Part shown: piece after piece, positions 11,900 through 37,084 of the stretch
How positions within the stretch are numbered: position 1 is the stretch's first letter
Layout: every line of letters starts with the position of its first letter
Assembly (NCBI GenBank): GCA_002791545.1
Contig: PFXG01000062.1
Span: 1-37,084 of the forward strand
Origin: Zetaproteobacteria bacterium CG_4_9_14_3_um_filter_49_83
GTDB taxonomy: Bacteria; Pseudomonadota; Zetaproteobacteria; Mariprofundales; Mariprofundaceae
DNA: 37,084 nucleotides
Reading direction: 5' to 3'
Notes under the pieces: generated by a model
Database searches by the model: none
The model's input: the letters and a program-made list of their open reading frames with translations, nothing else
What the model was told of the DNA's origin: nothing
Translations under genes and position numbers: made by a program

Positions 11900-12120
11900 C
11901 GCATCACACCCAGACAAGGCCTTAAAACATCCGGAACATCCTTTTCACCGTGCATCATTGCCAACAATTCCGGCAAATCCAATGCCAGCAATTCCAAAAC
12001 AGCCTGTCTGATTTCATAGCCACACAAATCGACCGCAAGCAGCGGCTCCAGCCAGGCTTCAATTTCCAGCATACCCTGCCTTTTTAATCTGAATTGTAAT
12101 TGTCGAATCTGATTTTCCAT
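11896..12120 (-). CDS. sdhE: SdhE-like FAD assembly factor for succinate dehydrogenase
   Basis: SdhE (YgfY/Sdh5, DUF339) helps attach FAD covalently to SdhA. This short soluble protein of 74 residues has the expected small helical layout: a basic N-terminus (QLQFRLKRQGMLEIEAWLEPLL) that corresponds to the family's RRGMLELD segment, then LLALDLPELLAMMHGEK, comparable to the LxxxDxxLLxW part. The conserved RGxxE-type motif is altered here (RQGMLE), so it is a divergent member. Its position right behind sdhB is strong support. I prefer ATG 12118-12120; the upstream GTG at 12174 would add an unlikely cysteine-rich leader. No good ribosome site is seen for either start. Confidence 0.78.
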   Translation of the reverse strand: MENQIRQLQFRLKRQGMLEIEAWLEPLLAVDLCGYEIRQAVLELLALDLPELLAMMHGEKDVPDVLRPCLGVMR

Positions 12121-20230: not shown

Positions 20231-22054
20231 TTATTCTACAGTTACGGACTTTGCCAGATTTCTTGGTCGATCAACGTCAGTCCCACGCAAAACGGCGACA
20301 TGATAAGCCAATAATTGCAGAGCCACAGAAAAAACAACCGGTCGCATTAATTTCGGCACTGTTCCTATATTTAGCACGGTCGTGTACTCATCTTCTTCAA
20401 GGTGATCATGATCCGTCAACACAAGCAGCCTTCCACCTCTAGCTCTGACTTCGGATAAATTCGACTGGACCTTATCTAACAAATCATCATCCGGCATCAC
20501 TGCAATCACCGGCATATCTTCATCCACAAGAGCCAAAGGCCCATGTTTGAGCTCTCCGGCCGCATAAGCCTCTGCATGAATATATGAAATTTCTTTCAAC
20601 TTCAGCGCAGCCTCCATCGCGACCGGATAACCGGGACCACGACCAAGGAATAATGCGTGATGTTTATGCACCAGTGTTTGCGCCAAAATACTAATCCGCC
20701 CATCCAAAGCCAGCACCTGCGAAACTGCCGAAGGCAATTGTTTAAGTTGATTCACAACATTTTCTTCGAAATCTGAAGTCAGTTCAAAGCGACGCCCCAA
20801 ACTTACCGCCAACATTGCCAGCACAACCAATTGAGTCGTAAATGCCTTGGTAGAAGCAACTCCGACTTCCGGACCAGCACGCGTCAAAAGTGACACATCA
20901 GCTCCCCGAACCATTGAACTTTCCGGCACATTGCATATAGCCATGGAATGAACATACCCCATTGACTTTGCCTCATTTAATACAGCCAGTGTATCCGCAG
21001 TTTCTCCCGACTGCGATATTACGACTAACAACGTGCCATCTGAGACTACCGGTTTTCGATAACGAAGCTCGCTGGCAATATCCACTTCACATGGAATTCT
21101 TGCCCATTGCTCAAACCAGTATTTGGCCGTTAACCCGGCATGGTAACTGGTGCCACAAGCAACAATCTGAACTCTCTTGGTCAGTTCAATTATTTTAGTC
21201 CCGGAAGCGCCAAGAAGCATCGGATCCAATACTTTGATGTTGCTCAAACGCCCTTCCAGTGCTTCACCGATCACAACGGGTTGCTCAAAAATTTCCTTGA
21301 GCATAAAATGACGATATTCGCCCCGTGTCGTACAACCAACCTCGAGTGTACTTTCCTTCACTTCCCTATCAACCTTCTGCCCTTCAGCATTAACAATCTC
21401 GATTGAATGCGTTGAAATACGAGCCACATCACCGTCTTCCAGATAAATAAAACGAGAAGTAACAGGCAGCAGTGCCAAAACGTCGGATGCGATAAAATTT
21501 TCACCAACACCAAGACCGATCACCAAAGGGCTACCATGTCTCGCTACCACAACTGAGTCTGATTCTGTCGTTCTCATAACAGCCAGTGCATACGAGCCTT
21601 GCAACTTCTGAATTCCCTTTTGAACCAAATCGAATAAATCTCCATCACATTGGCCGGATAAATCATTCAACAGATGAACTATGACCTCAGAATCAGTTTC
21701 TGACTCAAAGTGGTGCTGACTCTGATCCCGCTTCAAAAGTTGATGATTTTCAATAATACCATTGTGAACCAGCACAAAATCACCACAAGCATGTGGATGC
21801 GCATTATTAACGGAAGGCACTCCATGCGTTGCCCACCGGGTATGCCCGATACCCATAGGCGATTCGCAAGAACCTTTAGCGAGCTCCTCTTCCAAAGCAA
21901 CCAGTTTCCCCTTGGCTCTGACACGTCGAACTTCACCTTTCTCAATTATGGCGATGCCAGCAGAGTCATAGCCACGGTATTCCAGCGCTTTCAACCCCTC
22001 AATTAAAATAGGGACTACATTTCTTTGTGCTATAGCACCGATTATCCCACACAT
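20231..22054 (-). CDS. glmS: Glutamine-fructose-6-phosphate aminotransferase (isomerizing)
   Basis: Makes glucosamine 6-phosphate, the entry to amino-sugar synthesis for peptidoglycan, lipopolysaccharide and surface polysaccharides. It is 607 residues, full length. The N-terminal glutaminase begins MCGIIGA with the nucleophile Cys2, and carries YRGYDSAG and GHTRWATHG. Two SIS isomerase domains follow (CGTSYHAGL, SQSGETADT, FLGRGPGYPVAMEAALKLKE). The C-terminal RPRNLAKSVTVE is the typical ending. It follows a WecA-family gene by 24 bases without a terminator, so it is probably the last gene of the polysaccharide transcript. No glmS ribozyme is evident in the 24-base gap. Confidence 0.97.
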   Translation of the reverse strand: MCGIIGAIAQRNVVPILIEGLKALEYRGYDSAGIAIIEKGEVRRVRAKGKLVALEEELAKGSCESPMGIGHTRWATHGVPSVNNAHPHACGDFVLVHNGIIENHQLLKRDQSQHHFESETDSEVIVHLLNDLSGQCDGDLFDLVQKGIQKLQGSYALAVMRTTESDSVVVARHGSPLVIGLGVGENFIASDVLALLPVTSRFIYLEDGDVARISTHSIEIVNAEGQKVDREVKESTLEVGCTTRGEYRHFMLKEIFEQPVVIGEALEGRLSNIKVLDPMLLGASGTKIIELTKRVQIVACGTSYHAGLTAKYWFEQWARIPCEVDIASELRYRKPVVSDGTLLVVISQSGETADTLAVLNEAKSMGYVHSMAICNVPESSMVRGADVSLLTRAGPEVGVASTKAFTTQLVVLAMLAVSLGRRFELTSDFEENVVNQLKQLPSAVSQVLALDGRISILAQTLVHKHHALFLGRGPGYPVAMEAALKLKEISYIHAEAYAAGELKHGPLALVDEDMPVIAVMPDDDLLDKVQSNLSEVRARGGRLLVLTDHDHLEEDEYTTVLNIGTVPKLMRPVVFSVALQLLAYHVAVLRGTDVDRPRNLAKSVTVE

Positions 22055-22078: not shown

Positions 22079-23131
22079 TCAGCCCAGAAGTTGGTATTCT
22101 CTTGCTTGTCGAACAATTCTTCGCGCTAACACAAAGTACAGCACTATAAATGGCACAAAAAACCATAACCTGAGTTCACCGGGACTTTGCACCATCCACA
22201 CTGCGGCAAAACCCTGAATGATTGCCATTAAGCCGTAAAGCAATGTCACACGAGCATGTGTTAGTCCCATCCGAACCAGCAGTTGGTATAAATGCGTTCG
22301 ATGAGCTTGCGTAACATTTTCCCCTGCCATAGCCCGCCGACTCAACGTAAATGTCGTATCGAAGATGAAATGGAACAACAACATTGGAATCACAAGAAAT
22401 GTTGTGTGCGACACATCATAACGAGCTGCAATAATCGCCATACAGGCAAACACAAAGCCTAAAAATGCGCTTCCGGTATCTCCCATAAAAATTTTTGCTG
22501 GAGACCAGTTCCAAAAGAGAAACCCGGCCGCGCCAGCCAAAATCGTATAACTCAGAATATAGACAAAATAACTACCCAGATGAAAACTTATCCAGGCAAA
22601 GAAAGAGCAAGCAATAATCGCAGTTAATGCAGCCATGCCATCCACACCATCCATAAAGTTGTATGCATTGGTTAGCCCCAGCAACCATACAAATGTAATC
22701 GCATAACCAACCCAGCCCAATACAACATTTCCCACTAAAGGTAAGGCCAATTGATCCAACACAATACCTGTAACAAGAACTACGACTATCGCCACAAGGT
22801 GAGTAATTAATTTAATTTTGAATGTATATGCCTTAAGATCATCATAAAATGAAATCAGTGCTATCAACATGGCAGAAAGCAAGAAACCCCAAAAATATTC
22901 CTGATGAATCTGAGCCTTATCTGCAAGCATAAAAATCACCATGATGCCGATAATAAACGTCACCACAATAGCCACACCGCCAGCCCTTGGGGTAGGCATT
23001 TTATGTGAGGAACGAGCATTCGGAATATCCATAATCACCACCCGATATAACATCCACCAGGTAATAAGCCATGAAATAAAAGTAAGACCACAAGCAAAAA
23101 AAAGATGAACAACAAAAGCTGCCAGAGTCAT
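22079..23131 (-). CDS. WecA/WbpL-family undecaprenyl-phosphate sugar-1-phosphate transferase
   Basis: A 350-residue membrane enzyme of glycosyltransferase family 4 (PNPT), with about ten helices. It is expected to move a sugar-1-phosphate from a UDP-sugar to undecaprenyl phosphate, the first step of lipid-linked glycan assembly. Motifs seen are RSSHKMPTPRAGG, D97-D98 in FYDDLK, NAYNFMDGVDG at 155-165, FMGDTGSAFLG and the cytoplasmic AHRTHLYQ. The short HRTHLYQ form is closer to WbpL-type enzymes than to MraY. It lies directly after a WbpM/CapD-type dehydratase, which could supply its sugar. The exact sugar cannot be read from sequence. Confidence 0.92.
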   Translation of the reverse strand: MTLAAFVVHLFFACGLTFISWLITWWMLYRVVIMDIPNARSSHKMPTPRAGGVAIVVTFIIGIMVIFMLADKAQIHQEYFWGFLLSAMLIALISFYDDLKAYTFKIKLITHLVAIVVVLVTGIVLDQLALPLVGNVVLGWVGYAITFVWLLGLTNAYNFMDGVDGMAALTAIIACSFFAWISFHLGSYFVYILSYTILAGAAGFLFWNWSPAKIFMGDTGSAFLGFVFACMAIIAARYDVSHTTFLVIPMLLFHFIFDTTFTLSRRAMAGENVTQAHRTHLYQLLVRMGLTHARVTLLYGLMAIIQGFAAVWMVQSPGELRLWFFVPFIVLYFVLARRIVRQAREYQLLG

Positions 23132-23178: not shown

Positions 23179-25092
23179 TCACTTATCCAGAAGCGGCACA
23201 TAAGGATAAGTTAAATCTTTAATATCGCATTGCGGCTTGTAACCAACTTCTGACCGGAGAAGTATTTTCCGGATAGTATCAACATTAAATTCTCTGCATG
23301 CCTGATCCAACTGATCCAAAATTTCCTCTAGCTCATGCATTGGCAGCATTTCTTCGTCAGCAGTCATGATTAACGGATGTTTACTGCCAATCACGTTATC
23401 TCCTATCAGAAGCTCTTCATAAAGCTTCTCTCCCGGACGCAAGCCGGTAAATTTTATTTCAATATCACCTTCTGGATTAGCTTCATCTTTTACACTCAAG
23501 CCACTGAGATGAATCATTTTTTTCGCCAGGTCATCAATCTTAACTGGCTCCCCCATATCCAGAACAAATACATCACCACCTTTAGCCATTGCGCCAGCCT
23601 GAATCACCAACTGCGCCGCTTCCGGTATCGTCATAAAGTAGCGTGTGATCTCCGGATGTGTGACCGTAACGGGCCCACCATCTTTAATTTGCTTCTGGAA
23701 CAGGGGAATAACCGAACCGGAAGAGCCTAAAACGTTGCCAAAGCGCACCATACAAAAACATGTGGAATCTGTTTCCTGAGCCATAGCTTGAAGTACCAAC
23801 TCGGCCAAGCGTTTAGATGCCCCCATCACATTGGTAGGCCGAACCGCCTTATCTGTAGAAATCAAAACAAACCGTTCAACGGTGGAATCTACTGCTGCTC
23901 TTGCTGCATGATAAGTTCCAAAAACATTATTCTGTATGCCTTCTATCGGATTGAACTCAACCAGCGGCACATGTTTGTAAGCAGCTGCATGATAAAGCGT
24001 CTGGATGCCAAACACATCACACACCTGCTTCATACGACGATGATCAACCACTGAACCAAGTATCGGAACAAGTTCAATCTCCAAATCTGAATCAAAGATT
24101 TTAGTAGAAAGCTCCTGTTCGATCTTATACAAAGAAAACTCACTTCGTTCAAAAAGCACCAGACGCGATGGCTTCAGCTTTAAAGCCTGTCGGCATAATT
24201 CAGCACCAATGGATCCACCAGCCCCGGTAACCATCACGTTCTTTCCACAAACATTTTCTTCAAGCAGCGCCGCGTCGGGAGAAACGGAACTTCGCCCCAA
24301 CAGATCTTCGACTTTCACATCCCTAACATCACTGATTTGCACCTTACCATGCGCAATTTCAGACACGCTGGGCAGTATTCGAACCTGTACCGGGTAAGAC
24401 TCTAACCTGTCAACCAGAATGCGTTTACGCCCCTGATCTAATGAAGGAATAGCCAGCAAAACCTGACGGATATCATAACCCTGAATTAAGGAGTCCATAT
24501 CCTCAACCCGATAGACGTGCAACCCGGCCACTTCGCGGCCCACTTTATTAACATCATCATCGATGAAAGCCACAGGAAAAAAATCTAGTGAATGCCTGAA
24601 AATATCGAGTAATTGCACGCCTGCTTCACCAGCACCGTAAATAACAACATTAGTGGATCGCCCTTTCCGAACGTTTGGTGACAATACCCAACGCAACCAT
24701 AGTCGCCCCCCTCCGACAAACACATTCAAAGCCAACCAGAAGATAATAATGGATGAACGCGGAACGCCGTAAGGGTTAACAAAAAGAAGTAATACTCCAA
24801 AAAAAACTGTCGCCAATGATACGGACAAAAAAACCGTCCAAAGTGCTTTTATTTCAATGTAATGGATAACTGCGCGGTACATCCCCATTTTAGCAAACGA
24901 TAAAATAACAATGGCTGGTGCGGCAAAGAATATCCACACACGTTCCAAATCAGGGACGTAAACTTCTCCCAGCCGCAATGAAATCGATGCCCATAACATT
25001 ACTACCACCACGACGGTGTCGATAGCCATCATAACGCCTGATTTTCTAGCAGTAGTTAAATGCAAAATTTGTTTTAGCAGAAAGGGCACCAA
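23179..25092 (-). CDS. WbpM/CapD-type nucleotide-sugar dehydratase
   Basis: A membrane-anchored UDP-sugar 4,6- or 5,6-dehydratase of 637 residues. About four N-terminal helices (residues 20-125) lead to a first nucleotide-binding domain (YGAGEAG, 152-158) and then the catalytic SDR domain with TGAGGSIG at 289-296. The active-site set is STDK at 412-415 with M423-x3-K427: Met replaces the usual Tyr, as in WbpM and other large members of the family. In such enzymes the product is a 4-keto-6-deoxy sugar, often leading to QuiNAc, FucNAc or diaminosugars. The start is uncertain (TTG at 25092 or GTG at 25089); both follow GAAGGA closely. It lies 4 bases after the upstream WecA-family gene. Confidence 0.93.
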   Translation of the reverse strand: MVPFLLKQILHLTTARKSGVMMAIDTVVVVVMLWASISLRLGEVYVPDLERVWIFFAAPAIVILSFAKMGMYRAVIHYIEIKALWTVFLSVSLATVFFGVLLLFVNPYGVPRSSIIIFWLALNVFVGGGRLWLRWVLSPNVRKGRSTNVVIYGAGEAGVQLLDIFRHSLDFFPVAFIDDDVNKVGREVAGLHVYRVEDMDSLIQGYDIRQVLLAIPSLDQGRKRILVDRLESYPVQVRILPSVSEIAHGKVQISDVRDVKVEDLLGRSSVSPDAALLEENVCGKNVMVTGAGGSIGAELCRQALKLKPSRLVLFERSEFSLYKIEQELSTKIFDSDLEIELVPILGSVVDHRRMKQVCDVFGIQTLYHAAAYKHVPLVEFNPIEGIQNNVFGTYHAARAAVDSTVERFVLISTDKAVRPTNVMGASKRLAELVLQAMAQETDSTCFCMVRFGNVLGSSGSVIPLFQKQIKDGGPVTVTHPEITRYFMTIPEAAQLVIQAGAMAKGGDVFVLDMGEPVKIDDLAKKMIHLSGLSVKDEANPEGDIEIKFTGLRPGEKLYEELLIGDNVIGSKHPLIMTADEEMLPMHELEEILDQLDQACREFNVDTIRKILLRSEVGYKPQCDIKDLTYPYVPLLDK

Positions 25093-25096
25093 TCCT

Positions 25097-26758
25097 TCAG
25101 CCTAACAATCCACGACTGGTCAATATTATCAAGAGCCCGGAAAAACATAACATTAATACGGTATTCCTGTGCGGTTGCCTTCTAATAATAATTTTCAAAG
25201 CAAAAAGCCAAACAAATGACTCAACGGCCACGGACAGATACAAACCCAGAAACTCAACAGGAATCATTTCCACTTGCTCAGCCAGCCAAGGCAGAATAGC
25301 AACCATTGTGATGACCATAATTTCGAAACCAGATGTCAAAAAGATGCGCCCATGCCTTTTGAAAGCAAGTTTAAAAATAACCCACAGCAGTAATAACAAA
25401 GTTCCATATTTAAGATAATCCGGAACCCAGCCATGAGCAGAAACATTTAATGCCAAGAACAAAACAAAACAAAGTAAATAAAAAATACCATGGCACCAAC
25501 CCGTTCGCTCCGCACTGGATCCCCACGGATAAAGCATCAAACAAAAGATGACAACAAGCACTGTTGAACCTAATAACTTTCCAGAGGGGGGATCGACAAG
25601 TAGAACCAAAGGCACAAAAAAAAGTGGTATAAGCCAGGTCACAACCGGAATCGATTTCCCACTCAATTCGGTTAACTTGCTGTAAATTCCTTTCCCGTCA
25701 TCTTTTCCCTGACGAGGCTCCCATTTAACTGTGACCTTCAAACCAGCACGCTGTTGCGCAACAATCATCCCATACACCAGACTCAGACCTGTAAGCCCCA
25801 GCAACAACTGGGCCCAATCCGGTTGCAGGCGAAACTCAACGGAAAAAATACCCATAGCAATCATAACAGCATATAAAACGCCAACGACGCCTGGGTGCGG
25901 GATCCCAATATTCAAAAGGCGGTGATGTAAATGCGTTTTATCCGGAAGAAACGGACTCTCCCCATGCGCTATGCGCCTACCCATCACTAAAAGGGTATCC
26001 ATGATGGGTACCGCCAATATTAAAGCCATGCTAACTGGAGATACAGGTCTGATGATTGTATCTCCAGACTGAACTAACAACACGGCAAGTGCGGCCAGCA
26101 GGAATCCAAGCGACAAACTACCTGAATCACCCATAAATATTTTTGCTGGATGATGATTATGGAAGAGAAATCCAATCAAGGCAAAAAATAACGTAATGGT
26201 AATTAGAAAACAATCCTCGTAGCCGGCCTTGAATGCAAAAAAACCAAAGAACAATAATGCAATCGTAGCCAATCCCGAAGCCAAACCATCCAGGCCATCC
26301 GAAAGATTAAGGGCATTTATCACCCCAACCATAGCTACAATGGTCAATGGTATTGCCAGCCATCCTGTTTCAATGACACCAAACCCAAAAATATTTCCCA
26401 AATTGGTAAGCGAAGCTCCTGAAATCCAAACAAAAAGAGAAACACCAATAATTTCACCGATAAATTTTAGCTTAGGACTGATTTGCCAAACATCGTCAGC
26501 CAAGCCCGTTAAGAATACTACGATCAAACCAGCCAGAACACCTTGAATTGCCGGAGTGATTTCAACGAACCACGTAAGCGTTATCAACAACGATCCAACG
26601 ATAGACAGTCCACCCAACCGGGGCATTGCTTTACTATGAACCTTACGCGAATCTGGCCTATCCACAGCACCAACCAGAAATGATAATTTGATTGCTAAAG
26701 GCATAAGTAAAAGCGAAACCATACTGGAGAAAATCCCCACAACCATCAAATCATTCAC
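25097..26758 (-). CDS. WecA/MraY-family transferase with long C-terminal membrane extension
   Basis: A 553-residue membrane protein. Residues 1 to about 330 are a complete PNPT-family transferase: RPDSRKVHSKAMPRLGG, LADDVWQ, NALNLSDGLDGLA, FMGDSGSLSLG and the DKTHLHHRL loop. Family members are normally about 320-380 residues. Here a basic linker (KVTVKWEPRQGKDDGKG) is followed by about 190 more residues with five or six extra hydrophobic helices that I do not recognise. It starts with GTG behind AGGAAGGAG. A second enzyme of the same family lies two genes downstream, so this one may begin a different glycan or recognise a different acceptor. Confidence 0.88.
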   Translation of the reverse strand: MNDLMVVGIFSSMVSLLLMPLAIKLSFLVGAVDRPDSRKVHSKAMPRLGGLSIVGSLLITLTWFVEITPAIQGVLAGLIVVFLTGLADDVWQISPKLKFIGEIIGVSLFVWISGASLTNLGNIFGFGVIETGWLAIPLTIVAMVGVINALNLSDGLDGLASGLATIALLFFGFFAFKAGYEDCFLITITLFFALIGFLFHNHHPAKIFMGDSGSLSLGFLLAALAVLLVQSGDTIIRPVSPVSMALILAVPIMDTLLVMGRRIAHGESPFLPDKTHLHHRLLNIGIPHPGVVGVLYAVMIAMGIFSVEFRLQPDWAQLLLGLTGLSLVYGMIVAQQRAGLKVTVKWEPRQGKDDGKGIYSKLTELSGKSIPVVTWLIPLFFVPLVLLVDPPSGKLLGSTVLVVIFCLMLYPWGSSAERTGWCHGIFYLLCFVLFLALNVSAHGWVPDYLKYGTLLLLLWVIFKLAFKRHGRIFLTSGFEIMVITMVAILPWLAEQVEMIPVEFLGLYLSVAVESFVWLFALKIIIRRQPHRNTVLMLCFSGLLIILTSRGLLG

Positions 26759-27179: not shown

Positions 27180-28277
27180 TCAGACTCGATTGAGTTGAAG
27201 AAGTTTAAAATATTGTTCCGCCACAATTGCCCAGGTGTAGCGCCGCATGGCTATCTCCTTCATTGCAGCCCCTACAATTTCTTTCTCAGCCATATTCGGC
27301 GTGCGCAGCAATTCCTGCAACGCATACATAGAATCGAAATAAATAGCCCGATCTTCCGTTGTTGCCCTGTTGAAACTACAATCAAAAGCGATAACAGGCC
27401 GCCCGAAGTGCATGGCCTCCACCAGAGATGGATTAGTTCCGCCTGCCGAGTGACCGTGCACATAAATACTTGCGTGGGATCTTAGCGTTTTAAGTTTCCC
27501 GATATCGTAAATAGGATCCAGCAAATGCAAATGCCCTAAATCCTGATATTGTACTTGCAAGCTTCTGCCATAATCACTGCCTTTCCAGTTACCAACCATC
27601 ACCAGCGGCCACCTACTCTGACTTGCAAAGGCTTCCACAATCAGATGCACATTATTTTCGGGCTCAATACGGCAAACCGAAAAAGCATATTCCTCAGGCA
27701 ACGGATAACCATCAACAGGCACAGCATCCATATTTACCGCATGATCGCCACCATAGGCAATGACATGACTATCAACACCATAGGTTTGTTTTATATAATC
27801 AGCAATCGCCGCATTATCGGCAATCACTTCATGCGAAAAGCGAACAGCCAGCTTTTCTGAAAAACGCAAAAACCATTTCGCAAATGGGCTCCACTTATCT
27901 CTGCGCCACTCAATGCCATCAATGTTACTGATAACCTTTGCCCTTGAAATCAGCCGCACCAGAGGCAAAGCAATGGCTCCTGAAACCCCAAGTTGCAGTA
28001 TCACATCGGCACGATGCCACATCGCGGACAATAAACCCCAAATATCATAAGGAATGCTTTGCGCACCATTGGCATGCAGCGCAACATACTTGAGCTTGGC
28101 CGACATATAGTTTTCTTGCCGTTGAGAGTAACTTTTACTACTGCAGTAAACCGTCAGATCATCGGGCAATGAGCGCTCATCGTGATAACGAACCAGATTT
28201 TCAACCAGTGTTTCAAACCCACCATAATTTGCAGGAACACCCACGGTCCCCAAAATTGCAACTTTTTTATTTTTCAT
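27180..28277 (-). CDS. DUF1972-type glycosyltransferase (rhamnosyltransferase-like)
   Basis: A 365-residue GT-B fold glycosyltransferase. The N-terminus KVAILGTVGVPANYGGFETLVENL is the signature of the DUF1972 group, which includes rhamnosyltransferases of capsule and S-layer glycans. The central HVIAYGGDHA and the C-terminal EAMHFGRPVIAFDC match the group-1 (GT4) nucleotide-sugar site. It has no membrane segment and is expected at the cytoplasmic face. The ATG overlaps the upstream GH20-like gene by 11 bases. It is the last gene before the 421-base gap. Donor sugar unknown; rhamnose is a guess from the family. Confidence 0.9.
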   Translation of the reverse strand: MKNKKVAILGTVGVPANYGGFETLVENLVRYHDERSLPDDLTVYCSSKSYSQRQENYMSAKLKYVALHANGAQSIPYDIWGLLSAMWHRADVILQLGVSGAIALPLVRLISRAKVISNIDGIEWRRDKWSPFAKWFLRFSEKLAVRFSHEVIADNAAIADYIKQTYGVDSHVIAYGGDHAVNMDAVPVDGYPLPEEYAFSVCRIEPENNVHLIVEAFASQSRWPLVMVGNWKGSDYGRSLQVQYQDLGHLHLLDPIYDIGKLKTLRSHASIYVHGHSAGGTNPSLVEAMHFGRPVIAFDCSFNRATTEDRAIYFDSMYALQELLRTPNMAEKEIVGAAMKEIAMRRYTWAIVAEQYFKLLQLNRV

Positions 28278-29316
28278 CTGGGAAGTCTCTTAAAAATGTT
28301 TCACCGGAGAATTGAATGATTCGGTTAACCTTATCCCATTCTTTTCTCTGCACAAAATACCAAGTCGTAGCCATCATACCAATGGCCCCATGACGTTTTG
28401 CATAGTGACTAAAATTTGTAATTGTTTTCTCTTTTATAAATGTCGAACCGACCACTCTGAAGCCCTCATCATGAAAAACCTTCAATGAAGGAAAGTCACG
28501 CTGTTCATCTCCATAGTGCCAGTCACAAATAACGATATCCTTTGGCAACTTATGACGCAAAATGCCACCATAACCAGGTGCGATTTCGCCATGCAAATCT
28601 CTCGCCATCATATGAGGAAACTCCTCATCGGATATCAGCATATCCCCCCACATCCATGTTTCAACATGACGCTTTTTTAAAAAATCATGCACTTTAAGAA
28701 CATCATCGAGGAATAACTCAGCCGGAAAAACTTCTTCACCTTTACCTAAACCAATTCGCCTATCTTTTTTATAAAAAGTAGTGGCAGGAAGAATCCACCC
28801 AGCAACCTCATCATGTCCAATATGAATGGCCTTCGGGTGAAAAATATCAATCACCTCTTGAAGAACGGCGAAAACTTTGACATAAGTCTGCTCATTACGA
28901 GGATCATAAATCCCCTTACTATACATAAGCTCGGGGTAGTTATTTTGAAAAAATTTTTGCTGATGAGTCAAAAGTGCCAACTGGGGAATAACCTCCATCC
29001 CCAAAGAATTCGCCAAATTTGACCATTCAATCAACTGGGATTTCGTCCAGGCATCTCTCTGAGCTTTCCAGGGAGCGTGCTTTAAGCGAACTCCATCACT
29101 TAAGGTAAGCTGGATAGTATTGAAGCCTGAACTATGAGCCTGAACAAGCATTTTTTTAGCCGAATCAAAGTCCACATTCCTCAATACAAAGTGGAAAATT
29201 CGATATATTTTGTTTATTCCCCCTCCTGTTGATGTAGATGCAGCATCAACAGAAGGAACATAAAAGAAACAAAACATCAGTAGAAGAACCGTTCGGGCAA
29301 CTACATAGTTTATCAT
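28267..29316 (-). CDS. Exported GH20-like (beta-hexosaminidase fold) protein
   Basis: A 349-residue protein with a Sec signal peptide (helix about 8-22, cleavage near VDAAS). The rest reads as a TIM barrel similar to glycoside hydrolase family 20: VLRNVDFDSAKKMLVQAHSSGFNTIQLTLSDG near the start, and H165-I-G-H-D169-E170, the position of the catalytic Asp-Glu pair of GH20. It is shorter than typical GH20 enzymes and lacks their N-terminal domain. It overlaps the sulfotransferase gene ahead of it by ATGA and the glycosyltransferase after it by 11 bases, so it is a built-in part of the operon. It may trim or turn over an N-acetylhexosamine-containing polymer in the periplasm. Activity is inferred from the motif. 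Confidence 0.8.
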   Translation of the reverse strand: MINYVVARTVLLLMFCFFYVPSVDAASTSTGGGINKIYRIFHFVLRNVDFDSAKKMLVQAHSSGFNTIQLTLSDGVRLKHAPWKAQRDAWTKSQLIEWSNLANSLGMEVIPQLALLTHQQKFFQNNYPELMYSKGIYDPRNEQTYVKVFAVLQEVIDIFHPKAIHIGHDEVAGWILPATTFYKKDRRIGLGKGEEVFPAELFLDDVLKVHDFLKKRHVETWMWGDMLISDEEFPHMMARDLHGEIAPGYGGILRHKLPKDIVICDWHYGDEQRDFPSLKVFHDEGFRVVGSTFIKEKTITNFSHYAKRHGAIGMMATTWYFVQRKEWDKVNRIIQFSGETFLRDFPDEK

Positions 29317-30308
29317 CTGTATCCGAGTTCCTTCATGGTCTGAATAAATGGTTCCTTGATGAACTCATGAAGTTCAAAGGGTTTGACTGATTTTGCTGCA
29401 CTCAAAGTATGCGCTCCAAAATTGAGATAAGTTTGATCAAATTCAAAATTGGCAAAGGAAACTATATCCGTCAGAATTTTCCGTGGATGACAACACAAAT
29501 CTTCATAGTCAACCCTCAACACATCCTTCGGGTACTCTTTTATCAGCTTCATTCCCTCTCTCATAGTAACTATCCACTCTACCGCCGCCATATCCGTTTG
29601 ATTGAGCCATTTGCGCATGTCTTCAGCATGCAAAGCCAGATCATTGTATTCAGGGACAATTTCGTCTAGCAACAAATTCCACTTACGCTTATCTCTCCCC
29701 CACCAATCATGAACTTCTGAATTATTGGATTCCCCCAGACGGGATGACCAAGCATCAATAGAGTGACAAGTATCCCAGCCATTACGCACTAAGAAAATAA
29801 ATTTCGCATCTGGAAAAATTTCGCGCACGAAAGGCACTCGGAAAATGAGCTCAGGATATTTGTCTACCAATCGGGGGGAAAAGACAGTGGCAAGATATGC
29901 CCCAAAGAGCTTATGTGCATTTTTCTTCACCTCATCATTCGCATCAGCAGCAGCAAGCCTGTAGTGGGCAGCCCCACGACTATAGCTACCAATCACATCT
30001 TCTTCCGGGAAAATCGCATGCCACATAGCCTTGGGCTCATTAAGAAACCCTACTTCTCTGTGCATCGAAAGCACTACGCCTAAAATCGTAGTGCCGCTGC
30101 GACCGGTACCTAAGATAGAAATTGGCGTTTGGACCTTCTTTAATTGAGGAAGCTTTTTTTCTAGTGCGAAATGCGCAAAAAGAAACGGGTTAATCCACTG
30201 CCCACGAGTCGTCAAAGGGCGACCTTCAAACAGTGCATAACTAGCCAAGCGAGACACTAGCTTGCTTGGCCTAGTTTTAATATATCGAAAGTCTACCTGT
30301 GCTACCAT
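29313..30308 (-). CDS. Sulfotransferase family protein (first of a pair)
   Basis: A 331-residue cytoplasmic sulfotransferase, expected to pass sulphate from PAPS to a sugar hydroxyl. The 5'-phosphosulphate loop is ILGTGRSGTTILG (67-74 core), and the 3'-phosphate site is in FIFLVRNGWDTCHS with R175. The C-terminal part (VDYEDLCCHPRKILTDIVSFANF) is the usual end of the family. It starts 8 bases after the second sulfotransferase gene and overlaps the GH20-like gene by four bases. Some members of this superfamily act on other substrates, but the setting among glycosyltransferases favours a polysaccharide. Confidence 0.88.
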   Translation of the reverse strand: MVAQVDFRYIKTRPSKLVSRLASYALFEGRPLTTRGQWINPFLFAHFALEKKLPQLKKVQTPISILGTGRSGTTILGVVLSMHREVGFLNEPKAMWHAIFPEEDVIGSYSRGAAHYRLAAADANDEVKKNAHKLFGAYLATVFSPRLVDKYPELIFRVPFVREIFPDAKFIFLVRNGWDTCHSIDAWSSRLGESNNSEVHDWWGRDKRKWNLLLDEIVPEYNDLALHAEDMRKWLNQTDMAAVEWIVTMREGMKLIKEYPKDVLRVDYEDLCCHPRKILTDIVSFANFEFDQTYLNFGAHTLSAAKSVKPFELHEFIKEPFIQTMKELGYR

Positions 30309-30316
30309 TTCACAAC

Positions 30317-31345
30317 CTATTTCCCCAAATTAAACCGACGCTTAAGCGTGTCACTCAAGTTCTTTGTTCTTCCTAAATTCATGAGAAGAGCCATACCCCC
30401 CTTAAGTATTAGCATTGCCATAACTCCCATATACTTAAGATTGGGCTTCTTAATATACTCTACATCATACCCAAGCCTTCGCATTTCAGCTCCAGCGACT
30501 TGTTGACATATATATATTTCCACCCGGGAAAGCGCGCCTTTTTTCCATGCTTGGAATCGACTAACGTCTATTCCCTTTTGATCTGGCTTATCCTGCCCAG
30601 TCGATGATCCAATTTGTGGTATACTTAACATCTCAACCTCAAATGGAACATCAATATATTCGCATAAATGTCTTACAGTCTTTTCAGGCATTTGAACCAG
30701 ATCTTCAAACTTAATAGATAAAAACCGCTCGTGACCGTCAAGTTGTCTTGCTGCACGAACAGAGGACAACCACAGACGACTAATTATCCAGGGATGATAA
30801 TTTCCCCAAGCTCGAATAGCTTCTTTGAAAGGAATATTTTTTGCACCCAAGAACCTACGACGCCATTTATTTTTTTGCGAAAGCAAAACATCCCGAGGAT
30901 CTCGTGCCATATTTACAACTATCGCATCCGGAAAAATCTCTAAAATTTCCTTTGCAAAGAAGAGGTATCTAGGTGTTTGTTCGCACGGAATGCTTTTCCC
31001 GTGCTGTTTCGCCTCGTAGTGCAAAAACTGCTCATAACAGGCAATGGCATTTTTTGTCTTAACGGCACGATCTATTTCCTGAGCCACATGTCGATATTTT
31101 CTTGGGATAACCTTAGAAAAGAAACCGCTCCTAGAAGAAGTTAGCAATCTTTCCAGTAACGCGAAGCGCCGCTCTTCATCCCAGACAGGCTTATCCAGCG
31201 TATCTCGCGCACTAATCTGGTGCTCGAAAAAATGTAACTCTTCGAAGGTATGTACTTGTGAATTTTGACCCAAAATACGCCCCAGCATTGTGGTTCCACT
31301 TCGGCTATTACCAACAATAAATATCAACTTATTCAATGAACTCAT
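30317..31345 (-). CDS. Sulfotransferase family protein (second of a pair)
   Basis: A 342-residue sulfotransferase, distinct in sequence from its neighbour. The PAPS 5' loop is FIVGNSRSGTTMLG (12-19 core). The 3' site is VVNMARDPRDVLLS with R148 and R151. HLCEYIDVPFE and FEDLVQMPEKTVRHLC match the family's C-terminal half. A hydrophobic stretch near residues 308-325 (MGVMAMLILKGGMALLMNL) could hold it at the membrane. Two non-identical sulfotransferases side by side suggest two different sulphation positions, or different acceptors, and not a recent duplication. Confidence 0.88.
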   Translation of the reverse strand: MSSLNKLIFIVGNSRSGTTMLGRILGQNSQVHTFEELHFFEHQISARDTLDKPVWDEERRFALLERLLTSSRSGFFSKVIPRKYRHVAQEIDRAVKTKNAIACYEQFLHYEAKQHGKSIPCEQTPRYLFFAKEILEIFPDAIVVNMARDPRDVLLSQKNKWRRRFLGAKNIPFKEAIRAWGNYHPWIISRLWLSSVRAARQLDGHERFLSIKFEDLVQMPEKTVRHLCEYIDVPFEVEMLSIPQIGSSTGQDKPDQKGIDVSRFQAWKKGALSRVEIYICQQVAGAEMRRLGYDVEYIKKPNLKYMGVMAMLILKGGMALLMNLGRTKNLSDTLKRRFNLGK

Positions 31346-31397: not shown

Positions 31398-32309
31398 TCA
31401 AGCGCCTTCAAGCCATGACCAAGAAACATCTAGACCTTCTCCAAAACACGTTAGTGGTCGCCAGTTAAATGCAGCTTCCGATTTCTTAATATTCAGCACA
31501 ACTTCAGGCACATCGTAAGCACGACCAACTTTAAAGGTTGGCTCGATTGAAACATTAGCTGCTTGAATCACCGCATCAAAAACCTGCCGCACAGATTGCC
31601 CCTCACCAGCGCCAGCATTAAATATTCCTGTTTCAGCACTATTTCCAGCACAGACGCAAAGTTCAGCCAGGTCTTTTACGTAAATATAATCACGCACCAC
31701 ACTGCCATCGCCCCAAATCTCGATATCCTGCCCTGCCTTGATTTTACCCATAAAGGTGCCAATGACACCCTGCACACCGGCATGCCCTTGTCTTTCACCG
31801 TATGGGTTTGATGCTCGAAGAATAACCGCATCAATGCCGTATAAGGCTTGATACATTTGCAGATAATTTTCTATCGCAACCTTGACCACGCCATATGAGC
31901 AAATCGGTCTTAGTGGGTGCGTTTCAGGAATCGGGGAAACCTCTGGCACACCGTAAACCGTTCCCCCAGAGGACAGATAAATAATGCGTCGCACGCCTGA
32001 ATCCCGCATAAGATTCAGTAAACGTACTGTGCCTTTCAGATTGCTTTCAATGTCGTATATAGGATCTTTGTTGGATGTGCTCGGCACGGTGGTACTAATC
32101 AAATGATACACCACATCAATATCTTCAAGTGCCTCGCTTAATGCGGGTGTGTCATCGAAAGCAGACAAACGATAGTCGACTTTTTGCAAAGGCGACCTGA
32201 ATTTTTCAGGGGCACGGTCAAACACGCGAACACTATGACCCTCAGCCAACAAGGCATCCACCACATGTGATCCGATAAAACCATTACCTCCCAGTACCAA
32301 AGCTTTCAC
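31398..32309 (-). CDS. NAD-dependent sugar epimerase/dehydratase (GalE-like SDR)
   Basis: A 303-residue extended SDR acting on a nucleotide sugar. The cofactor loop GGNGFIG is at 7-13, DRAP follows strand two, SSGGTVYG lies at 113-120, and the catalytic pair is Y139-x3-K143. RASNPYGERQ and IWGDGSVVRDYIYVKDLAEL are typical of UDP-glucose/GlcNAc 4-epimerases and their relatives. It overlaps the upstream glycosyltransferase gene by four bases (ATGA) and is 52 bases ahead of the sulfotransferases. It probably supplies a sugar donor for this cluster. Which one cannot be told. Confidence 0.92.
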   Translation of the reverse strand: MKALVLGGNGFIGSHVVDALLAEGHSVRVFDRAPEKFRSPLQKVDYRLSAFDDTPALSEALEDIDVVYHLISTTVPSTSNKDPIYDIESNLKGTVRLLNLMRDSGVRRIIYLSSGGTVYGVPEVSPIPETHPLRPICSYGVVKVAIENYLQMYQALYGIDAVILRASNPYGERQGHAGVQGVIGTFMGKIKAGQDIEIWGDGSVVRDYIYVKDLAELCVCAGNSAETGIFNAGAGEGQSVRQVFDAVIQAANVSIEPTFKVGRAYDVPEVVLNIKKSEAAFNWRPLTCFGEGLDVSWSWLEGA

Positions 32310-33523
32310 GACAGCACCTCGGTATAAATCTCTTTCAGCGTTCGGTATAAGTTTTCATCATTAAATTCCCTATCGGAGAATTCTTTGGCTCGTTTACCAA
32401 TAGCTTCTACTCGCGCTGGCTCCATCCAGAGTTCGCGAACGGCTTCTGCAAGAGCAGCAGAATCTGTTGCTTCATAAATCAACCCCCGCTCACCATGTTG
32501 AACCAATTCAGTTATTCCGCCTCGATTAGACCCTATAACTGGCTTTCCAAAAGCAAATGATTGGTTGATTACATACGGAAAATTCTCATGCCAAATTGAA
32601 GGAACCACAACAAACGAACAGGCTTTTAGCTCTGCATCCATCTCATTCCCCCACTTAGACCCAGTAAATACGACATTGTTACACCCTAAATCTTTTGCCA
32701 GCTGTTTCAACTTTCCAAAATCAGGGCCATCACCAACAATTCGAAACGGAACTTCTGGGAGTTTCGATGCTGCTTGCATAAGAATATCTACTCCCTTTTC
32801 ATCTATCAATCGGCCAAAAAACAGCACTGAGCCACCAGTGTTATAGGTTGCAGTATATTTTGTACTATCAAATGGGTTGCGCAATTTACGCCATCGGAAT
32901 GTACCTTTTCCCCAAAACTCTTCGGTTTTATGGGCCATAAATTCACTTGAAAACAAGAACGTGTGAATATTCTTTCGATAGATATTCATCATATTATGTG
33001 CATAGGCCTCTATACTGCTGGCAGCACTATAGGTTAGAGAGTCATGGCAACAGCGGTTCACTATTGCCTTGTAAAAGTGACCGCCTTTACATTCTTCACA
33101 AATCTTGCCGTGATGATAAAGCTTATAACTGGGGCAAATATGCTTGTAATCATTACAACTCATAACTACAGGCACCTCTGCTTCACGAGCAGCATCCAGA
33201 ATAGAAGGTGTAAGTTTGACATAAATAGCAAAAGCATGGATAAGATCAGGTTTAAAATCAGCAATAAGTTTAGCCATAGCTTGTTTTGCACGTAATGAAT
33301 AAACCATGGAAGGGAATGTTTTTATTTTACTAAAAAGACCAGAATTTTGATAATCGGCAGCTTTAGGAAAGTAATCAGACCAAGGCGCATTCAGATTATC
33401 CTCATGACATGAGAAATAAGCAACTTCATGCCCTTGCTGCTCAAGAACACGGCCCACCTCATGATAAAAAACCTCAGCTCCTCCTGTAATAGAATAAGCA
33501 TTGTGAGTAAGAAGTATTTTCAC
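32306..33523 (-). CDS. Glycosyltransferase family 4
   Basis: A 405-residue GT-B glycosyltransferase. The N-terminal acceptor domain begins KILLTHNAYSITGGAEVFYHEVGRVL. A cysteine-rich insertion at about 127-160 (CNDYKHICPSYKLYHHGKICEECKGG) is seen in a subgroup of GT4 enzymes and might bind a metal. The C-terminal donor domain has VLFFGRLIDEKGVDIL, GDGPDFGKL and VPSIWHENFPYVINQSFAFGKPVIG with the E-x7-E type motif. It lies 3 bases after the GT2 gene. Sugar specificity is unknown. Confidence 0.92.
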   Translation of the reverse strand: MKILLTHNAYSITGGAEVFYHEVGRVLEQQGHEVAYFSCHEDNLNAPWSDYFPKAADYQNSGLFSKIKTFPSMVYSLRAKQAMAKLIADFKPDLIHAFAIYVKLTPSILDAAREAEVPVVMSCNDYKHICPSYKLYHHGKICEECKGGHFYKAIVNRCCHDSLTYSAASSIEAYAHNMMNIYRKNIHTFLFSSEFMAHKTEEFWGKGTFRWRKLRNPFDSTKYTATYNTGGSVLFFGRLIDEKGVDILMQAASKLPEVPFRIVGDGPDFGKLKQLAKDLGCNNVVFTGSKWGNEMDAELKACSFVVVPSIWHENFPYVINQSFAFGKPVIGSNRGGITELVQHGERGLIYEATDSAALAEAVRELWMEPARVEAIGKRAKEFSDREFNDENLYRTLKEIYTEVLS

Positions 33524-33526
33524 TTT

Positions 33527-34471
33527 CTATAATCTGCTTAGTTTTTTCTGTTTATGGAATCTAACCAAGCCTCTCCACATCGCCCGAAATGCATCTATTC
33601 TTCTATTAAGAACATAACTCACTGACCACTTAGACCATCGAATCAGCAAGCTTATTTGTCCCTGTATCCTTTCCACAAAGGTTGCATGAAGAGACAAGTT
33701 GAGAAGTGAACCATAAACCAGATGCTCCAGGAAGAAAGTTAGCCTAGGATTTGTTATGCTGTGGGTGAAAAAATGTTTACCCTCATCCCCTCTTAAGCTT
33801 GAATGAGCTTTATGTAGCAGCAAGCTACTCGGAACATAAGATATTTTATAACCCGCTTTGATAATCCTTGCACTTAAATCTACATCTTCACAATAAATAA
33901 AAAACCTTTCATCAAAACCTTTAGTTTTTTCTAATGCTTCCCTGCGCAAAAACATGGCACAACCAGAAATAAAGGTAACATCCAAATTATCCATGCAGTC
34001 ATCAAATGTCTTGTTAATCATTGGCGATCTCGCACCACCCTTCTTCCAGTTAAGATAACCTCCTCCATACCACACAATATCCGGATAATCCAAACTCATG
34101 ATTCGCGGAGAGCATGCACCAACTTCAATATGACTTTCCATATACTGCGTTAAAATAGAAATTGAGTTCTGTCTTAAAATAGTATCATTATTGAGAACAT
34201 AGACATACTTACAGACAGTATTCTCCAAGGCCCAATTAATGCCAAGGTTATTCCCTCCTCCAAAACCTAGGTTTTCTTCACTCTGAATCACATGAATATT
34301 AGGATAGATTTCCTTTGCAACATCCACATCTACTCTATTTCCAATAGCTGAACCATTATCCACCAGAACAACAAATGGTAAGGTGTCCGACTCTCGCAAG
34401 CTATGCAAGCAAGCTAGGGTATCATCTAATCCGTTATAATTTATTAGTACTGTAACCACATCACATCGCAT
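33527..34471 (-). CDS. Glycosyltransferase family 2 (WbbL-like)
   Basis: A 314-residue GT-A glycosyltransferase. The opening VVTVLINYNGLDDTLACLHSL, LVDNGS, NLGFGGGNNLGINWAL and the YVLNNDTIL divalent-metal motif match the WbbL/rhamnosyltransferase subgroup of GT2. FDERFFIYCEDVDLSARI in the middle is the family's ED-rich acceptor motif. The C-terminal 60 residues carry a basic amphipathic segment likely to touch the membrane. It overlaps the Wzy-like gene by 11 bases. Rhamnose as donor is plausible but unproven. Confidence 0.93.
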   Translation of the reverse strand: MRCDVVTVLINYNGLDDTLACLHSLRESDTLPFVVLVDNGSAIGNRVDVDVAKEIYPNIHVIQSEENLGFGGGNNLGINWALENTVCKYVYVLNNDTILRQNSISILTQYMESHIEVGACSPRIMSLDYPDIVWYGGGYLNWKKGGARSPMINKTFDDCMDNLDVTFISGCAMFLRREALEKTKGFDERFFIYCEDVDLSARIIKAGYKISYVPSSLLLHKAHSSLRGDEGKHFFTHSITNPRLTFFLEHLVYGSLLNLSLHATFVERIQGQISLLIRWSKWSVSYVLNRRIDAFRAMWRGLVRFHKQKKLSRL

Positions 34472-35750
34472 GTTTTATCCTCTTCTGCAAATCCATAAGG
34501 CTAATCATAACCATCGTAATCCCAAGTAAAACATACATTATAGAATACACTTCTGTAATTGATACTATTAACTCAAAAATAAACACCATAACAAACGAGA
34601 TGATTAAATATTGAAAAATGGACTGCCAAGCGCGATGCCCAGCGTCAGAAGAATAGGCTTTTTTCAACAACCTAATCATCCGCTTTTGAAGGAACAGTAA
34701 CAAAATCAGACCTACCAGACCTTTTTCCAGCGCAACTGTTAAATAATAGTTATCTATAGCATTAAGATAAGGGATTTGCTCTGCCCCCTGGTGAATACCA
34801 TAACCATACAGTGGCGAGGAAAAAACAGCTGGTATCCCGTACATTAACTGAAGCAATCTAGCATAGCTGCTTCCTTCCGCTCCCCCCGTTCCAAGTAGTA
34901 TATCAATAAGAATCCTGTCCAACTCCAAAATAATACCTAAAATTAAAGTTGCACATATTACCAACGATACTAAAAGAACCCGCTGAGCACGAATAACTTG
35001 TCCAGATTGCAGCCACAGAATCCAGACTAAAGATAGAACTAAAAGCCCTAAACCAGCGCGGGAACCTGTAAACCACATACATATAGGGATAAGCACAATC
35101 TGAGATGCAGCTAAATTTCTATACAATCTCTTTTTAACCTGTCGAACAACATAAAAACAGATTGGATATAAAAGAACCATAAACTCTGCAAATGATAAAG
35201 GGTTACTAAATGTCGAGGTTACTCTGTATCTGCCATCTCGAACCTTTCCTTCTAAAATTTGTTCAGCTGTCTTAGAAGCGGCATCAACGTACTGAGCAAA
35301 AAAAGACCCATTCATTGCAACTTCAAGCAAAGCAATCGCTTCCGCAATGAAGAGCGATATCATAACAACCACTGAAAAAATAACCACATGCCTGAGTGAC
35401 CTTATATAACTCACTGCAAATAACATAAACACGGGGAAATAAAGTATTTGAAGGATTGCAGCACTCAGCGAAACGGACTTGTTGGCAGAGCCAAGAATTG
35501 CAGCAACAATCCCTTGCAAAAAAAATGCTGTTATAAGCAAAATAAGCACCTTGTTTTGCTTATAAATAATCCGAATATGCCTTTGTAAATTTCCAAACAG
35601 GAAAAAACTTATAGACCAGATAATCAGTAAACACAATAATACTATCCTAATAGGGTTAACTCCTATAGGGCCAACTACTATTACAACATAAGATGGCCAG
35701 ATAATGCTTAACATAATAAGTAGCAAAAACAAATTACGCCCGATAGTCAT
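34461..35750 (-). CDS. Wzy-like O-antigen polymerase/ligase family membrane protein
   Basis: A 429-residue integral membrane protein with ten or more hydrophobic helices. It has the large periplasmic loop and the WFTGSRAGLGLLVLSLVW segment seen in O-antigen polymerases and ligases (Wzy_C type). The RVTSTFSNPLSFAEFM motif before it is also typical. It is the first gene of the cluster as seen here and starts with ATG behind GGAGTGAG. The decayed IS256 element ends only about 40 bases upstream, so the original promoter or upstream genes may have been lost or displaced. Polymerase and ligase cannot be told apart from sequence alone. Confidence 0.85.
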   Translation of the reverse strand: MTIGRNLFLLLIMLSIIWPSYVVIVVGPIGVNPIRIVLLCLLIIWSISFFLFGNLQRHIRIIYKQNKVLILLITAFFLQGIVAAILGSANKSVSLSAAILQILYFPVFMLFAVSYIRSLRHVVIFSVVVMISLFIAEAIALLEVAMNGSFFAQYVDAASKTAEQILEGKVRDGRYRVTSTFSNPLSFAEFMVLLYPICFYVVRQVKKRLYRNLAASQIVLIPICMWFTGSRAGLGLLVLSLVWILWLQSGQVIRAQRVLLVSLVICATLILGIILELDRILIDILLGTGGAEGSSYARLLQLMYGIPAVFSSPLYGYGIHQGAEQIPYLNAIDNYYLTVALEKGLVGLILLLFLQKRMIRLLKKAYSSDAGHRAWQSIFQYLIISFVMVFIFELIVSITEVYSIMYVLLGITMVMISLMDLQKRIKHAM

Positions 35751-35841: not shown

Positions 35842-36962
35842 TCATTTGATGCTCCGCACCTTTTCATCAGCCTTTTGCGTCTGTGTCGCCTTCCATTCAA
35901 AATATTCCTGCATATCGAAATATTTTCTTCCCGTACTCCATGTTTCATGCTATTCAGCCAGCAACGCACCGATTAGGCGCATGGCTGAGGCCTCATTGGG
36001 GAAGATGCGAATTACCCTTTCACGCCCGCGAATCTCTTCATTTAGCCTCTCCTGCATATTGGCTGTGGCTAGTCGTTTGCGATATTTTTCTGGCAGGGGG
36101 TCATCACCGCCAGCGCATCTTCAAGTCCATTCTCTAGGATATCAAGAGCTTTGTCCGCCTTGCCTTCAAGTTCCCCAGCAAGTTGCCTGAAGCGTGCCCG
36201 TGCCTCAGTCCTGCCCTCAGCACCAAAGACTCTCTTCATGCCCACAGCCAGAATGCCACGATAGCGATTGCTGGATGACCCCTCCAACACATTACGTATC
36301 AGGTGAGCCTGACACCGTTGCCATGTTGCACCCTGAAAGTGCCGAGCAGCGGCTTTCTTTAGTCCTTTGTGATCATCAGAGACCGCTAAATCCACGCCCT
36401 TCAATCCACGTTACTTCAACCAGCCAAACAGTGCGGCCCAAGTGGACTTCGTTTCTGAGTTCCCAACCATCATGCCGAGAATCACACGGTTGCCATCTTC
36501 GTTGATACCAGAGGCGATGAGTCCACTCATCGGCACAACCCGACCATCCGTGAGAACCTTGATTACCAGTGCATCCACAATCAGAAAGGGAAACAGGCGG
36601 TCATCCAACCGGCGTTCATTCCACGCTGCAACTCGGACATCCAGATTGGTGCAAAGGCGACTCACCGCTGATTTGGAAAAGCTTTCCCCACACAGCTCTT
36701 CAGTAACCTTCTCAACCCGGCGCGTACTCACTCCCTGCATTACCATCTCCATCATCGCCAACACCAACGCTTGCTCTGACCGCTGATAAGGACTGAAAAG
36801 GTCGGTGCTAAACTCTCCACCGCGGCTCTGTGGAACACGAAGCACCAATTTCCCAATGCGCGCATAAATCGATCGTGTCCGGTAGCCGTTACGATAACCC
36901 TTGCGATCGCTGCTACGCTCATAGTGCCCAGCCGTCAAATGCTCACTCATCTGTGCATCCAA
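35842..36962 (-). pseudogene. Decayed IS256/Mutator-family transposase
   Basis: The whole reading can be followed from the AQMSEHL region, through YRNGYRTRSIY, the VDALVIKV / catalytic-domain section, GVDLAVSDDHKGL and HFQGATWQRCQAHLIRN, to ERLNEEIRGRERVIRIFPN and a final VRSIK. It is broken in several places. TAG at 36966-36968 interrupts the N-terminus (VVN-stop-VLDAQM). TAA at 36411-36413 replaces a codon in WLK-stop-RGLKGVDL with the frame unchanged. A change in a run of five C's (36096-36100) shifts the frame after DALAVMT. TAG at 35950-35952 interrupts LLAE-stop-HETW. It is certainly non-functional as a single protein. It lies next to the polysaccharide locus, a usual landing site for IS elements. 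Confidence 0.93.
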
Positions 36963-36988: not shown

Positions 36989-37084
36989 AACCCTTCAACC
37001 CTTCAACCCTTCAACCCTTCAACCCTTCAACCCTTCAACCCTTCAACCCTTCAACCCTTCAACCCTTCAACCCTTCAACCCTTC
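36989..37084. repeat. Tandem array of 12 perfect 8-base repeats
   Basis: The unit aacccttc occurs exactly 12 times and runs to the window edge, so the full length is unknown. On the minus strand (gaagggtt) it carries TGA in every third unit of each frame. On the plus strand it is open in all frames. The last unit lies in frame with the transposase remnant (codons for K-G-L-V-E-A), so the array appears to have grown from transposase coding sequence. A collapsed or misassembled repeat at a contig end is also possible. Confidence 0.9.

Follow-up and report, generated by a model that had tools for sequence, protein, structure and literature searches.

Until recently, the literature presented sulfated polysaccharides among bacteria as essentially confined to cyanobacteria (PMC8205485; PMC13390465 says the same), and sulfated capsules are now known from Vibrio and Cobetia as well (PMC11641403, PMC11766843). 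Several of these systems resemble the locus analyzed here in part. The xss cluster of Synechocystis makes synechan, a Wzx/Wzy-type sulfated exopolysaccharide, and encodes two sulfotransferases of distinct subfamilies, but it is cyanobacterial and the term “glycoside hydrolase” is absent from the text searched (PMC8205485). The wps-1 cluster of Actinoplanes missouriensis is also of the Wzx/Wzy type and combines two sulfotransferases of different kinds with a glycoside hydrolase; normal sporangium formation reportedly depends on both sulfotransferases (PMC13390465). However, the hydrolase belongs to GH26 rather than GH20, the cluster comes from a single Gram-positive organism, and no sulfotransferase-hydrolase pair conserved across phyla is reported in the passages searched. 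The capsules of the marine proteobacteria Vibrio KMM 8419 and Cobetia marina KMM 1449 have been chemically shown to be sulfated, and their clusters contain sulfotransferase genes, but these rely on an ABC-transporter route, carry PAPS genes within the cluster, and are described with no mention of a glycoside hydrolase (PMC11641403, PMC11766843). A polymer-cutting enzyme that is exported or periplasmic and whose gene lies with those that make the polymer it cuts is familiar from PelA, PslG, PgaB, and AlgL, although these belong to other enzyme families and involve no sulfation.

We found that each element of the locus is already known from synechan and wps-1. The initial annotation, which called it an undescribed system, therefore went too far, as both a two-sulfotransferase Wzx/Wzy cluster and a cluster joining two sulfotransferases to a GH26 enzyme have been published. 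We found no published polysaccharide synthesis operon that pairs a GH20 enzyme with a sulfotransferase in the open-access literature searched.

A polysaccharide operon in a zetaproteobacterial genome

The stretch analyzed (hereafter the window) comprises 37,084 nucleotides of contig PFXG01000062.1 (C68) from the 2.68 Mb, 99% complete genome of Zetaproteobacteria bacterium CG_4_9_14_3_um_filter_49_83, of the family Mariprofundaceae. A polysaccharide operon runs on the minus strand from 35750 to 20231, with a GC content of about 0.42-0.43 compared with 0.50 in the left part of the window. It begins with a Wzy-type polymerase/O-antigen ligase family protein (34461..35750, PF04932), a GT2 glycosyltransferase (33527..34471, PF00535), a GT4 glycosyltransferase (32306..33523, PF00534) that is syntenic in the orthologous loci L004, L009, L012, L015, and L053, and an NAD-dependent sugar epimerase/dehydratase (31398..32309, PF01370). 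The sulfotransferases ST1 (30317..31345) and ST2 (29313..30308) and a GH20-family protein (28267..29316) follow, and then a Cps2T-like GT4 glycosyltransferase with a DUF1972 domain (27180..28277), whose counterparts immediately follow GH20 in many relatives. Next is a 553-aa WecA/MraY-type polyprenyl-phosphate sugar-1-phosphate transferase with a long C-terminal membrane region (25097..26758, PF00953), which is the probable initiator of the repeat unit and has homologues near GH20 in several loci. The operon closes with a WbpM-like UDP-HexNAc 4,6-dehydratase (23179..25092, PF02719, E 4.8e-127), adjacent to but outside the conserved core discussed below, a second WecA/WbpL-like HexNAc-1-phosphate transferase (22079..23131, PF00953 and TIGR02380 similarity), and GlmS (20231..22054, TIGR01135), which supplies glucosamine-6-phosphate and is also a housekeeping gene.

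ST1, ST2, and GH20 lie on the minus strand where the initial annotation had placed them. Its description of genes that overlap or nearly abut between sugar-transfer genes was borne out: ST1 and ST2 are separated by 8 bp, ST2 and GH20 overlap by 4 bp, and GH20 overlaps the DUF1972 GT4 gene by 11 bp, with glycosyltransferases, the epimerase, Wzy, and two WecA-like transferases around them. Past the window, the contig (L023) encodes two more sulfotransferase-family proteins (one below the Pfam cut-off), a GT2, a GT61, and a Polysacc_synt_3 flippase (Wzx, about 41687-43192), which together with the PF00953, PF04932, and glycosyltransferase genes of the window makes up the gene set of a Wzx/Wzy cluster. 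Outer-membrane exporter or co-polymerase genes were found neither in the window nor on this contig.

The GH20 protein and the two sulfotransferases

The initial annotation had proposed two different sulfotransferases and a GH20-like protein with a signal peptide and an intact HxGxDE motif, and the domain searches agree on all three. The short-form, 349-aa GH20 protein matches PF00728 (E 2.3e-7, 30.9 bits, cut-off 22.3) and GH20 chains in the PDB (E down to 8.6e-21), and a profile built from 15 of its homologues retrieved 55 PDB sequences, nearly all of them labelled GH20 or hexosaminidase. Alignment places the catalytic motif at H165-I-G-H-D-E170 and the oxazoline-stabilising tyrosine at Y268 within CDWHY, and the signatures HIGHDE, TWMWGDM, and CDWHY are shared with homologues. 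On this basis the protein is a putative enzyme of the beta-N-acetylhexosaminidase family with an intact catalytic Asp-Glu pair and tyrosine. Its N-terminus, MINYVVARTVLLLMFCFFYVPSVDA followed by AS, is a plausible signal peptide as judged by eye, and a signal-peptide-like hydrophobic stretch occurs at the N-terminus of all 28 homologues checked, 24 of which keep HxGxDE. The polarising Asp, intact in the window, is replaced by Glu in L004 and by Ser in L026, which suggests that some members may depart from the standard mechanism. The family falls into two length classes, one of ~350 aa (the window, several Proteobacteria, and most Nitrospira) and a longer one of ~440-480 aa, extended at the N-terminus by an additional region (anammox, Delta, Desulfocapsa, and others). 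The window protein is the only GH20 copy in its genome.

The AlphaFold2 model of the protein (pLDDT 84) was matched by Foldseek to a Treponema denticola entry (9fym, TM 0.65, 23% identity), then to Niako3494 (8bal), and then to streptococcal and other GH20 enzymes, so that the best match to the predicted structure carries a lacto-N-biosidase label. Sequence and fold agree on 9fym, 9fyl, and 8bal as the nearest solved structures; 9fym and 8bal share HxGxDE and the CDWxY segment with the window protein but are only about 20-25% identical to it. We know of no polysaccharide-synthesis setting for the 9fym and 8bal enzymes, and a search of the open-access literature on 9fyl, 9fym, and 8bal returned nothing relevant.

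As 6-sulfo-beta-GlcNAcases belong to GH20 (PMC11659886) and the gene adjoins sulfotransferase genes, the enzyme could instead take off a terminal 6-sulfo-GlcNAc placed by ST1 or ST2, thereby editing the sulfation pattern. The N-R pair that binds the 6-sulfate in Bt4394 and human HexA (PMC11659886) is absent, however: Tyr268 is followed by Y-G-D in the window and by Y-x-D (CDWHYxD) in most members. Sulfate-binding motifs other than N-R are also known (PMC11659886), and the substitution is a weak argument against a specific 6-sulfo-GlcNAcase. The nearest solved relatives, a lacto-N-biosidase entry and Niako3494, are likewise not known sulfoglycosidases, and we regard this function as improbable.

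Both sulfotransferases score above the Pfam cut-off, the 342-aa ST1 with E 2.5e-30 to PF13469 and 8e-13 to PF00685, and the 331-aa ST2 with 2.6e-22 and 1.5e-8, respectively. The Sulfotransfer_3 motifs GxxRSGTT and RxxxDxxxS are present in both, as GNSRSGTT and RDPRDVLLS in ST1 and as GTGRSGTT and RNGWDTCHS in ST2, and in ST2 the N-terminal residues preceding the Pfam domain form a further block of strong conservation. By inspection, neither protein has a signal peptide, and with both PAPS motifs in place ST1 and ST2 would be expected to sulfate the lipid-linked repeat unit while it is in the cytoplasm. The genome encodes an APS kinase (E 4.7e-67), indicating that PAPS can be made. It is also conceivable that ST1 and ST2 sulfate a target other than a polysaccharide, such as a lipid or a protein, as protein-tyrosine sulfotransferases and the sulfotransferase domain of CurM are the solved structures closest to ST2. 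These matches of ST2 and of its predicted fold are weak, however (TM about 0.5, 15-20% identity), and every genome found to carry ST2 has it within a glycosyltransferase operon, which makes a non-polysaccharide target very unlikely.

A conserved ST2-GH20 neighbourhood

The initial annotation had proposed looking in other genomes for the trio of two sulfotransferases and GH20, accompanied by WbpM, and counted a lack of conservation against its reading. By this measure the trio fails, as hexapeptide acyltransferases take the place of ST1 in L004, L009, L010, and L053, while the ST2-GH20 pair was retained. As for WbpM, the 10-kb flanks of the GH20 loci contained a single weak match (L007, 1.9e-9), which we discarded as a Bac_transf-type protein because of its similarity to L068. 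The conserved core is therefore smaller than proposed and consists of ST2, GH20, and the DUF1972 GT4. Counting the window, there are eight loci in which an ST2 orthologue stands beside GH20; they come from several proteobacterial classes and from a single planctomycete of the anammox order, and the orthologues are 48-63% identical to the ST2 of the window. In the window, L004, L009, L012, L015, and L053, the ST2 gene lies directly 5' of GH20 and overlaps it by 1-26 bp; one glycosyltransferase gene separates the two in L010, and L052 has two GH20 copies with ST2 between them, 10 bp from the preceding copy and 779 bp from the following one. The DUF1972 GT4 follows GH20 directly, with overlap, in the window, L009, L010, L012, L013, and L053. 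Recurring as it does in seven further loci, the ST2-GH20 neighbourhood is more than chance. Mean pairwise identity is highest for ST2 (0.58), followed by GT4 (0.53) and GH20 (0.43). We do not interpret the correlation between ST2 and GH20 identities (Spearman 0.63) as coevolution, since the data points lack independence and common descent accounts for it. The anammox-order loci L011, L013, L051, and L052 have between one and three sulfotransferases near GH20 that belong to another group (STc2).

A placement test gave a similar picture. Of the 12 genomes with both GH20 and a sulfotransferase (excluding one Nitrospira genome that lacks any sulfotransferase and a duplicate record), 10 carry a sulfotransferase gene no more than 10 kb away from GH20, compared with 0.47 expected from genome-wide PF13469 matches, an expectation that assumes uniform placement, so that any general enrichment of sulfotransferases in polysaccharide loci stays within the observed excess. 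A few GH20 positions in this test were taken from locus coordinates and are accurate to ~1 kb, and in two genomes (G413 and G416) all PF13469 matches fall within the GH20 locus. The repeated gene order across classes is the stronger evidence.

GH20 itself is rare and patchy. We found it in 3 of 150 relatives, in 4 of 397 genomes of a phylum sample (one of the four divergent), in 4 of 62 genomes of Jettenia's order, and in 2/399, 8/198, 3/297, and 2/300 genomes of further samples, of which the 2/399 and 2/300 samples overlap (same order) and are not independent counts. The members in G304, G1015, G1206, and G1210 are divergent, those of G1015 and G1206 being about 1000 aa long. A phage origin was set aside because there were no relatives among viral contigs, and plasmid spread because ST2 had no matches and GH20 a single partial one.

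Eight GH20 loci of the Nitrospira group have no sulfotransferase nearby and are surrounded by housekeeping genes (YchF, a K+ transporter, DnaJ-type), showing that the family can act outside polysaccharide operons. As the window GH20 is sister to these copies in the GH20 tree (support 99/96), linkage to a sulfotransferase must have been lost or gained within the family. The Nitrospira copies, the occurrence in so few relatives, and the low GC content (0.42 against 0.50) could all be accounted for if GH20 served nutrient scavenging and had been brought to its present, incidental position by horizontal transfer. Yet an incidental position is hard to square with a gene order that repeats, with overlapping genes, across proteobacterial classes, and the genome has no other GH20; we give this scenario very little weight.

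The ST2 operon can also persist without GH20, as seen in a MAG of the same family (G028, 67% complete) that has an ST2 orthologue. There, the two GT4 genes that flank GH20 elsewhere stand 26 bp apart with no GH20 between them, and a few genes upstream is an exported-type PF11790 protein (22.5 bits, cut-off 21) with the clan-A-like motifs FGNE and VTEWN. A Bac_transf-type initiating transferase lies beside the operon on the opposite strand, and no WecA-type transferase was found on the stretch examined. This single case suggests that the hydrolase slot can be filled by different families.

Proposed product and significance

With a probability of roughly 55%, we believe that the locus makes a sulfated, HexNAc-containing Wzx/Wzy polysaccharide that would be trimmed in the periplasm by GH20; the product, the sugar cut, the location, and the trimming role are all inferred. 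HexNAc is a probable constituent of the repeat, given that HexNAc-1-phosphate is the substrate of WecA-type transferases and that GH20 enzymes act on beta-HexNAc bonds. In the proposed scheme, a WecA-like transferase would place HexNAc-1-P on undecaprenyl phosphate, and GT4 and GT2 enzymes would lengthen the repeat unit. The conserved ST2 and the strain-specific ST1, in whose place relatives have acyltransferases, would then add sulfate from PAPS in the cytoplasm. After flipping by the Wzx encoded beyond the window, the unit would be polymerised by Wzy and exported. GH20, secreted to the periplasm via its putative signal peptide, would cut beta-HexNAc linkages of the same polymer and thereby set its length or release part of it in soluble form, in the way PelA acts on Pel, for which a trimming or release role has been shown (PMC9894940).

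The main rival to trimming is clearance of the kind described for AlgL, which removes alginate from the periplasm (PMC8829089). Here, the polymer would be made and sulfated in the same way, and GH20 would only degrade polymer stranded in the periplasm rather than shape the exported product. A swappable safety enzyme would be expected to go missing at times, as GH20 has from the G028 operon. The overlaps among the ST2, GH20, and glycosyltransferase genes fit clearance and size control equally, and sequence cannot separate the two. We consider clearance unlikely, if the most credible of the alternatives.

The initial annotation had likewise suggested a sulfated hexosamine polysaccharide edited in the periplasm, which is still the best reading of the predicted functions and gains support from the conserved synteny, although the trio and the claim of an undescribed system did not hold. 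Exporter-type genes flank orthologous loci (Wzz/tyrosine-kinase and Poly_export in L012, SLBB/Poly_export in L015, and YjbH in L004), and judging from these neighbours an EPS or capsule is the more likely product than the O-antigen with which the locus had been compared. A link to the zetaproteobacterial stalk was also considered and dropped, as the paper on the stalk gene cluster mentions neither sulfotransferase nor sulfate.

Sulfated GAG-like matter has been reported in granular sludges, where its enzymes and producers are unsettled (PMC10483923). It is speculative, and in our view doubtful, that horizontal transfer has spread ST2-GH20-GT4 as a module for making a common class of sulfated GAG-like polymer with a built-in trimming enzyme, and that this module, or the STc2 version of it found in anammox genomes, is a genetic source of such material in anammox and other granular sludges. 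The ST2-GH20 module may nonetheless serve as a candidate for this unexplained matter. The matched sulfotransferase and hydrolase also offer a pair for enzymology, and the association of a highly conserved sulfotransferase with one exported-type hydrolase across proteobacterial classes and anammox-order planctomycetes would give genome searches a marker for one class of sulfated polymer.

GH20 neighbourhoods and sequence variants

Among the loci compared, those of the Nitrospira group (L005, L006, L008, L054 and L056-L059) place the GH20 gene in stable housekeeping surroundings composed of YchF, a K+ transporter and DnaJ, with an epimerase nearby and no sulfotransferase in the GH20 neighbourhood. 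In the anammox-order loci L011, L013 and L052, three sulfotransferases of the STc2 group, which is distinct from ST2, are found close to GH20, and L013 and L052 each carry two GH20 copies. The polarising Asp of the catalytic HxGxDE motif is replaced by Glu in one GH20 protein (HIGHEE; L004 9989-11056) and by Ser in another (HIGHSE; L026 9959-11407), and these substitutions suggest that catalysis is altered in both. Two glycosyltransferase-rich loci encode proteins of ~1000 aa with a divergent GH20 domain (L060 8772-11708 and L062 8414-11410).

The hydrolase of the G028 operon

The ST2 operon of G028, a MAG of the same family, lacks GH20 and instead encodes an exported-type PF11790 glycoside hydrolase (L068 5909-7384), and it is possible that the one has been swapped for the other.

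Right end of the window and operon continuation

Between Wzy and the continuation of the operon lies a Mutator-family transposase on the minus strand, broken into two pieces (36069-36962). It is adjoined by a perfect 8-bp tandem repeat, AACCCTTC, whose 12 copies (36989-37084) reach the window end. Elsewhere in the window, a DUF1573 domain is fused to a cytochrome c domain (11171-11917).

Past the window, the operon runs on (L023 436-1371, 3896-4798 and 4788-6293; contig C68 about 37335-43192). Its content there comprises GT2, GT61, a Wzx flippase and two further sulfotransferase-family genes, the second of which scores below the Pfam cut-off; the polysaccharide locus therefore has up to four sulfotransferases.
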